This document shows positions 41,340 to 45,247 of a stretch of 64,000 nucleotides of DNA, piece by piece. Source of the DNA: Armatimonadota bacterium (lineage in GTDB: Bacteria > Armatimonadota > UBA5829 > DTJY01). The position numbers and the translations under genes were made by a program. The notes beneath the pieces were generated by a model. The model ran no database searches and was not told the DNA's origin. It saw only the letters and a program-made list of their open reading frames with translations. Within the stretch, counting starts at the first letter, position 1, and each line of letters begins with the position of its first letter. The stretch is taken from assembly GCA_023511795.1 (NCBI GenBank), contig JAIMAU010000007.1, positions 1 through 64,000 on the forward strand, given 5' to 3'.

Positions 41340-42035
41340 TTAAATTTTAATCCGTGCTTTCCCTTCTTCGTAACATTGGGGACAATAGCCGTGTGAGATA
41401 GCAATGTCGTGTTCATTACCGAGGTAAGCCTCTGGTGAGACCCATTGGCCATCGGAGCGGCGAATCTTGCCACAAACACAACAAAACGTAAGCATTGAGC
41501 CAAGGAGCCTTTTCTGGGTGAGCTCAAGGAGATCTGCTTGAGGCTTTCTTATTTTTTCAAACCGAAGTATGCTTTCATATCCATTTATTTCTTCAATATA
41601 TTGACCGGATTCCACAATAACTTTATAGCCGCTTTCAGCTAGTGCAGCTAAAATCAACGCCCAAAGTGGGCACGGAGCGGTTCCTCTCTCCCAAGATTTT
41701 TGCTCGTTCCATATTTTGCCGCCGAACTGATTGTATTCGACCATTCGATATCTATTGTTAGGTAAATCTTCGAGCTCAATTTTGGAAAAGAACCCGCACG
41801 ACGTAGCAAATTTTATGAGATTGCAGTACAGCTTCCAAGGGTCGGGATCGCGGAAAGATACTTTCATTTTTTCTTCAATGTAGCGCAAAAAGAAGCTCCC
41901 AATGGCCAAATACATTGCTTCTTCGCCTTTTGCGCCGAATAGCCTGTGGCATACTTCACCAAGCCCAAAGAAATAGCCCTCCATTAGGTCTGGTAGTTTT
42001 TCTCGTCGTTTTGGTCCTTCGATGACCTGTTTCAT
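41340..42035 (-). CDS. protein with a C-terminal zinc finger of the CxxC-SHGxCPxC type
   Basis: I do not recognise the N-terminal 170 residues, which look like one alpha/beta domain (starting KLPDLMEGYFFGLGE). The last 45 residues read CCVCGKIRRSDGQW and then HDIAISHGYCPQC, a zinc-binding module commonly found at the C-terminus of PAS proteins and response regulators. Here it is attached to another sensor-like domain. No signal peptide or membrane segment is present, so it is cytoplasmic. A sensory or regulatory role is possible but unproven. It converges on the HemX-like gene. Confidence 0.65.
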   Translation of the reverse strand: MKQVIEGPKRREKLPDLMEGYFFGLGEVCHRLFGAKGEEAMYLAIGSFFLRYIEEKMKVSFRDPDPWKLYCNLIKFATSCGFFSKIELEDLPNNRYRMVEYNQFGGKIWNEQKSWERGTAPCPLWALILAALAESGYKVIVESGQYIEEINGYESILRFEKIRKPQADLLELTQKRLLGSMLTFCCVCGKIRRSDGQWVSPEAYLGNEHDIAISHGYCPQCYEEGKARIKI

Positions 42036-43873: not shown

Positions 43874-43902
43874 TTGACAATTTGCCGTACCAGGCATAGA
43901 AT
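43874..43902 (+). promoter_or_regulatory. sigma-70 promoter of the zinc-ribbon gene and mraZ
   Basis: TTGACA at 43874-43879 and TAGAAT at 43897-43902 are separated by exactly 17 bases. Transcription should start near 43909, inside the GNGGT repeats described next. Confidence 0.82.
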
Positions 43903-43940
43903 TGGGGTGATAGGTGGTGGAAAGTGGTAAATTGTTCCAC
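43902..43940 (+). promoter_or_regulatory. MraZ-box-like repeats over the transcription start
   Basis: Three units with a 10-base period read TTGGGGTGAT, AGGTGGTGGA and AAGTGGTAAA (43902-43931), sharing G(G/T)GGT at the same offset. MraZ of E. coli binds TGGGN direct repeats with the same 10-base period, and the mollicute box is AAAGTGG, which the third unit matches. An inverted repeat GTGGAA/TTCCAC spans 43917-43940. Since mraZ is the second gene behind this promoter, autorepression is a natural inference. Confidence 0.5.
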
Positions 43941-43996
43941 AAACGACCAGGAATGACCTGACTCGGCCAATGCAAAGAAAGGGAGGACAAATTTTG

Positions 43997-44668
43997 ATGG
44001 CACCTCTCGCGATACCAGAAGGTGTGGTCACCGACATCCAGGTAGAAACTCAGCCGGCAGGTCTGACGGCCATGTACATGGTCGAGGCTCAGAACGCCGA
44101 GGAAAGCAAAGAGATAGCGGTCCTATTTAAGGAGTTCGCGTCAGCGGTTGACGTTGTGCAACTTTGTACAGGCAGGCTAATGGGCTATGCGGTGAGGGCA
44201 CGTGACCAAGAGCAAAACCTCCTCCTAGACCAGATATACAAAGTAATCACATCTCGTTACCACGGTTTCGTAATACGGCAAAAGCCGATTGAACAATGCA
44301 TGTTTGAACTTTGCCGCGAATTATGCAGGGACTACGGAGGAAAAATGTTAAAAATACCCACCTGCGATATCTGTGGGAAATATGATCCCTTCCCCAGTAC
44401 TATCGTGAACCTATTGAATGAGCGCGGCACGACAATCGCTTCACGTACATACTGTGCCAGTTGCACAGCTGAATGGGGTGATAGCCCCAGCAAAGAGTTT
44501 CTGATTTCCCTCCTTCAGGCTGACAAACGTAATTTTGGTTCTTTGCTGGGGATGAATATTGTCAGGAAGCCTTTGCGACGAAAGCATACAATTGGAAGTA
44601 AACCATGCGGAAAATACCTTGCTTTCAAGATAATGTCTGATGCTGACCAGCAGTCAGCCATGGGGTAA
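43997..44668 (+). CDS. cysteine-rich zinc-ribbon protein of unknown function
   Basis: The ATG at 43997 has GGGAGGA 9 bases upstream, giving 223 residues; the in-frame ATG at 43970 is upstream of that site. Family unknown. A zinc ribbon is visible as CDICGKYDPFPST and YCASC about 40 residues apart, with other cysteines in QCMFELCRELC. The N-terminal 100 residues look like an alpha/beta domain and the end is basic (RKPLRRKHTIGSKPCG), which could contact nucleic acid. It is the first gene behind the promoter at 43874 and mraZ follows after 20 bases, so a link to growth or division control is possible but unproven. Confidence 0.7.
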   Translation: MAPLAIPEGVVTDIQVETQPAGLTAMYMVEAQNAEESKEIAVLFKEFASAVDVVQLCTGRLMGYAVRARDQEQNLLLDQIYKVITSRYHGFVIRQKPIEQCMFELCRELCRDYGGKMLKIPTCDICGKYDPFPSTIVNLLNERGTTIASRTYCASCTAEWGDSPSKEFLISLLQADKRNFGSLLGMNIVRKPLRRKHTIGSKPCGKYLAFKIMSDADQQSAMG

Positions 44669-44688
44669 ACTTTTCGGGGGGCAAGCCC

Positions 44689-45117
44689 TTGTTTTCAGGA
44701 GCATACGCACATTCTGTTGACAGCAAGGGTAGAACAGTAATCCCTGCTAAGTTCAGGGCAAGGCTTGGTGAGAGGTTCTACATTACAAAAGGGATGCATG
44801 GATGCCTGTGGGTACTTTCTGATGAACAGTGGAGACAATTCCAACAGGCGCTTGCACCAAAATCACTCCTTGCCTCCCAGGCGCTTAAGCTTGAAAGGTT
44901 TTTCGTGGGCTCCGCGGTCGAGTGTATACCGGATGGCCAGGGAAGGATTTTGATTCCCCAGAACCTTAGGGATTACGCGGGAATCGACGGAGATATATGG
45001 ATCGTGGGGCTCACGAACAAAATCGAGATTTGGTCCACCGACCGTTGGGAAGCATTCAATCGTGAGTTGACTGACGAAGAAATTCAGAGAATAGGTGAGA
45101 GTTTGGAGCTAGGCTAG
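44689..45117 (+). CDS. mraZ: transcriptional regulator MraZ
   Basis: MraZ is a DNA-binding repressor of the AbrB-like swapped-hairpin type that normally heads the division and cell wall (dcw) cluster. The 142-residue protein has both conserved DxxxR motifs, in YAHSVDSKGRTVIP at residue 11 and PDGQGRILIP near residue 82. It begins with a TTG at 44689 behind a G-rich stretch; no in-frame ATG fits. rsmH/mraW and ftsL, the usual followers, are absent: a terminator and a minus-strand gene come next. It is therefore an orphan mraZ, with a zinc-ribbon gene as its only operon partner. Confidence 0.95.
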   Translation: MFSGAYAHSVDSKGRTVIPAKFRARLGERFYITKGMHGCLWVLSDEQWRQFQQALAPKSLLASQALKLERFFVGSAVECIPDGQGRILIPQNLRDYAGIDGDIWIVGLTNKIEIWSTDRWEAFNRELTDEEIQRIGESLELG

Positions 45118-45195
45118 CATTGAGGCTTGCCCGCATCGGAGGACACATAATAAAAAGCAAACAATCGGAAACTACCTGCGTCACACTACGTTATA

Positions 45196-45247
45196 CCGGG
45201 CGGGATGTTTTTTTATGCTCCCCTTGCGCTGCCCGCCCGGCTTTTTT
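45196..45247 (+). terminator. terminator of the mraZ operon
   Basis: CCGGGCGGG at 45196-45204 pairs with CCCGCCCGG at 45232-45240 and is followed by CTTTTTTATC. The loop is long (27 bases) and itself contains TTTTTTT. It lies 78 bases after the mraZ stop. Confidence 0.75.

Follow-up and report, generated by a model that had tools for sequence, protein, structure and literature searches.

MraZ acts as a repressor of its own promoter in E. coli and, in M. genitalium, of the cluster that holds the division genes (PMC8475190). The MraZ site of B. cenocepacia is composed of four 7-bp repeats with 3-bp spacers, which lie downstream of the −10 element and overlap the start site (PMC7761207). Here we describe a candidate operator with the same layout, that is, a 10-bp period after the −10 element and over the predicted start site, in a 64,000-nucleotide stretch of DNA from an Armatimonadota bacterium (hereafter referred to as the window), whose genome comprises 3.09 Mb in 35 contigs. 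The candidate operator stands before a gene for a predicted zinc-ribbon protein (ZR) and a second copy of mraZ (mraZ2).

The ZR gene (positions 43997–44668, forward strand) encodes a 223-residue protein with a four-cysteine zinc ribbon (CxxC...CxxC) and is the first gene of the predicted operon. After a gap of 20 bases, it is followed by mraZ2 (44689–45117, forward strand), which starts with TTG and encodes 142 residues including the motifs DSKGR and DGQGR. An upstream ATG at 43970 was rejected as the start of ZR because a sister species has a stop codon in that stretch, which closes it. As the sequence-only reading of this DNA had proposed, a terminator follows mraZ2: an intrinsic-terminator-like hairpin at 45196–45246 of the forward strand (CCGGGCGGG...CCCGCCCGG, then CTTTTTTAT) combines a nine-pair GC stem with a T-run (−21.2 kcal/mol, z −2.2), its long loop lying outside the rule of the promoter/terminator scan. 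The RNA family search returned a chance-level match only. A 231-residue protein encoded near the operon, and not part of it, on the reverse strand (41340–42035 of the window) carries a different C-terminal four-cysteine motif.

Upstream of ZR, a sigma-70-type promoter on the forward strand, TTGACA-17-TAGAAT (43874–43902; TTGACA at 43874–43879, TAGAAT at 43897–43902), has 11 of the 12 consensus bases and was ranked first in the region by the promoter scan. A single base (T) separates TAGAAT from three boxes of the form GKGGT, arranged as GGGGT-N5-GTGGT-N5-GTGGT at 43904–43908, 43914–43918 and 43924–43928 in steps of exactly 10 bp. This putative MraZ-type operator (43904–43928, forward strand) spans about −5 to +20 over the predicted start site, behind the near-consensus promoter. 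The arrangement thus agrees with the published MraZ operators in placing at least three repeats after the −10 element with a period of 10 bp. The triple-box score was reached by none of 200 dinucleotide shuffles of the same upstream region, and the 3.09-Mb genome contains no second copy of the exact triple, so that the promoter with three 10-bp-spaced boxes, which had been claimed from the letters of the window, is confirmed at 43874–43928. Apart from the dcw promoter described below, the candidates for further regulon members in this genome were intragenic or promoterless and were rejected; this check covered every exact double-box match and the single triple match with one mismatch.

The window's genome has two MraZ genes. 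The one in the window has no rsmH or fts neighbours, and is a MraZ paralogue rather than the mraZ of the dcw cluster, which lies on contig C3 in the order mraZ1-rsmH-ftsL-ftsI-murE-murF (rsmH to murF being named from translations alone). The sequence-only reading had called the window gene an orphan; it does lie outside the dcw cluster, but the word can only mean a second copy, since that cluster has its own mraZ. MraZ2 scored 118.6 bits against Pfam PF02381 (cut-off 23; E 1.2e-34) and 116.2 against TIGR00242 (cut-off 98.35), matched the solved MraZ structures 1n0e, 9qlr and 9sx6, and is 51% identical to MraZ1. Both DxxGR motifs, the DNA-binding motifs of the family, are intact. Phylogenetic analysis of 50 MraZ proteins grouped MraZ2 from 18 genomes in one clade (support 99/99) that was separate from all dcw copies. 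We read MraZ2 as an ancient paralogue of the MraZ encoded in the dcw cluster, predicted to bind an operator of its own. Third, divergent MraZ copies were also encountered (L125, L127 and L129, in G018 and G022); they sit on a long branch and have lost the second DxxGR motif, and two of them have no DxxGR match at all.

ZR is present in 20 of 291 Armatimonadota genomes, namely 17 of the 28 genomes of the class and three in family f6 outside it. In essentially all 17 class genomes with ZR, the gene lies directly upstream of mraZ2; in G017 a contig end splits the pair, with a C-terminal fragment of ZR adjoining mraZ2, and in G020 the gap is about 0.6 kb. The expectation that a zinc-ribbon gene accompanies mraZ in relatives thus held, with the order reversed: ZR precedes mraZ. 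Class genomes without ZR have one mraZ each by gene count, the exception being G014, which has mraZ2 and no ZR. The pair is kept across four families while the flanking genes change between genera; the conserved unit is therefore the two genes, and a conserved third operon gene was rejected. A search for ZR on plasmids or viruses found none. The distribution given here is that within Armatimonadota, the contig scan having reached close relatives only. Between two species, ZR differs at 5 non-synonymous per 520 sites vs 18 synonymous per 149, and mraZ2 at 1 per 332 vs 7 per 94. These counts indicate purifying selection on both genes.

To compare the candidate operator among relatives, we used 20 upstream regions: those of the 17 class genomes with ZR, of G014 (mraZ2 alone), and of ZR in G028 and G055. 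In all 20, GKGGT boxes recur every 10 bp downstream of a TTGAC-17/18-TATAAT-like promoter; 19-nt spacers given by the automatic promoter search reflect a shifted hexamer, the TATAAT-like element being found at 17/18 nt. The first box begins 1–4 bp after the −10 element in the class and 9–11 bp after it in f6. The box score was 14 or 15 of 15 letters in 19 regions, in each case unreached by 200 shuffles of the region itself; G004 was weaker (score 12, reached by 6.5% of shuffles). In the 28 class genomes, 13 of the 14 exact triple-box matches were at the ZR-mraZ2 operon, and an exact triple in G005 was rejected as a regulatory site because it sits within a coding frame. Allowing one mismatch, 24 of 32 triples were at the operon, vs 26 scattered matches for a reversed control pattern. 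The boxes are therefore conserved before the orthologues; the opposite outcome, named in advance by the sequence-only reading as contrary to its proposal, did not occur. Its central claim, an autoregulated two-gene operon, gains strong support from this comparison, as the predicted promoter and boxes stand before ZR-mraZ2 in every relative that has the pair.

In G014 the boxes are kept before mraZ2 although ZR is absent. In G028 and G055, no mraZ lies near ZR, yet boxes precede it; no other observation hints as strongly that ZR is a true target in its own right. The second mraZ copies of f6 lack boxes in their own promoters, and autoregulation is therefore not universal where ZR has boxes. Divergent ZR paralogues of f6 (L054, L055, L056 and L057, in G028 and G042) have near-consensus promoters and no GKGGT boxes.

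ZR had no match above cut-off in Pfam, NCBIfam or PHROGs, and nothing significant was found among PDB sequences. Its residues C123, C126 and C156 are invariant and C153 is near-invariant, with a predicted beta-hairpin between the two CxxC knuckles. By this cysteine pattern, which is that of a zinc ribbon, ZR is predicted to be a zinc-binding, zinc-ribbon protein. AlphaFold models of ZR from 22–23 relatives were confident (mean pLDDT 84.8 and 88.9) and placed in order a beta-alpha-beta-beta-alpha-beta domain, the four-cysteine zinc ribbon and a short tail. Foldseek matches were weak and mostly to ACT and ferredoxin-like domains (best E 3e-3, low TM-score). An ACT domain was not identified, as there was no Foldseek match below E 0.001 and no Pfam match. 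With the structural matches this weak, a sensor role of ZR is a guess.

We consider it probable, on comparative grounds, that ZR and mraZ2 form a two-gene operon which MraZ2, the product of the second gene, represses, and that ZR is a dedicated member of the circuit. In this model, a ring-shaped MraZ2 oligomer would occupy the GKGGT boxes, of which there are three or sometimes four, spaced by one turn of the helix. It would thereby mask the start site immediately after the −10 element and limit transcription of ZR and mraZ2. ZR would be a dedicated target, carrying boxes even when not beside mraZ, and is possibly a partner of MraZ2 as well. Repression by MraZ2 is inferred because the box layout is that of the known MraZ autorepression sites. 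We likewise infer the binding itself, the oligomeric state and an action of ZR on MraZ2 or division. MraZ is known as an activator and as a repressor, in different bacteria, so MraZ2 might instead activate the operon; boxes at about −5 to +20 behind a near-consensus promoter are in the typical position of a repressor, which makes activation quite improbable. G014, with mraZ2 and no ZR, counts against the autorepression model and fits the notion that ZR and mraZ2 are co-transcribed neighbours with no functional link, as unrelated genes can share operons. We find this notion doubtful, given that the pair persists in four families despite changing flanks and that boxes are also found at the unlinked ZR outside the class.

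A different candidate for the protein on the boxes is MraZ1. The dcw promoter of the window's genome reads TTGACA-17-TATATT, with GGGGT-N5-GTGGT and a poor third box right after the −10 element, and G002 has a comparable three-box set before its dcw cluster. Because the family's dcw promoter carries GGGGT-N5-GTGGT, MraZ1 could also bind the ZR-mraZ2 boxes, and cross-talk between MraZ1 and MraZ2 is possible in this family. Taken further, the boxes might mainly be MraZ1 targets, with MraZ1 repressing both dcw and ZR-mraZ2 and MraZ2 acting elsewhere or in mixed oligomers. In three sister families (f3–f5), no GKGGT triple above chance was found in the dcw upstream regions, many of which have TGG steps of 10–11 bp instead. 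The f3–f5 MraZ1 proteins form a long-branched clade in the MraZ tree, with altered recognition loops (e.g. DSAGRFVMP and DSQFRVQLT vs DxKGRTVIP and DxQGRIxIP of MraZ2). In f3–f5, the divergence of the dcw operator thus seems to have gone hand in hand with that of MraZ1, so that the two circuits would be separate there, yet the ZR-mraZ2 boxes remain near-perfect GKGGT. This argues for MraZ2 and leaves the reading with MraZ1 as the main binder rather unlikely. The proposed link to cell division has a corresponding split: related, weaker boxes stand before mraZ1-rsmH-ftsL in the window's family, whereas the dcw operator has diverged in the three sister families. At L128 (G020 dcw, upstream of mraZ1), and also at L126 and L118, long arrays of TGG in helical phase were seen, with as many as seven units 10–11 bp apart; such arrays before the dcw mraZ are possibly a shifted MraZ1 operator.

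An extension of the preferred reading, autorepression by MraZ2, is that after the MraZ paralogues had split their operator specificities, ZR, as an ACT-like sensor joined to a zinc ribbon, came to bind MraZ2 or its DNA complex and to tune repression in response to a metal or a metabolite in an insulated module. We regard this as unlikely. With a second MraZ, a conserved candidate operator for it and a dedicated but unnamed companion gene, the locus offers a natural experiment on the evolution of MraZ specificity, and ZR hints at a possible cofactor of MraZ regulation.

Among described proteins, the modelled N-terminal domain of ZR resembles ACT, PII-like and ferredoxin-like domains in fold (weak Foldseek matches to aspartate kinase ACT domains, SbtB and PstA), but it lacks sequence similarity to them and is fused to a zinc ribbon. 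MraZ2 shares with the MraZ family (PF02381, TIGR00242) scores above the cut-offs and the two DxxGR motifs, and is set apart as a supported clade of Armatimonadota paralogues. As in the dcw mraZ promoters of E. coli, Mollicutes and Burkholderia cenocepacia, the ZR-mraZ2 locus combines a MraZ family protein with GTG-containing direct repeats upstream of mraZ. It differs from these autoregulated promoters in lying outside dcw, in belonging to a second copy, in having a zinc-ribbon gene first and in the consensus GKGGT. Self-repression of this kind is already known for MraZ; the interest of the locus lies in its unnamed, conserved companion gene.
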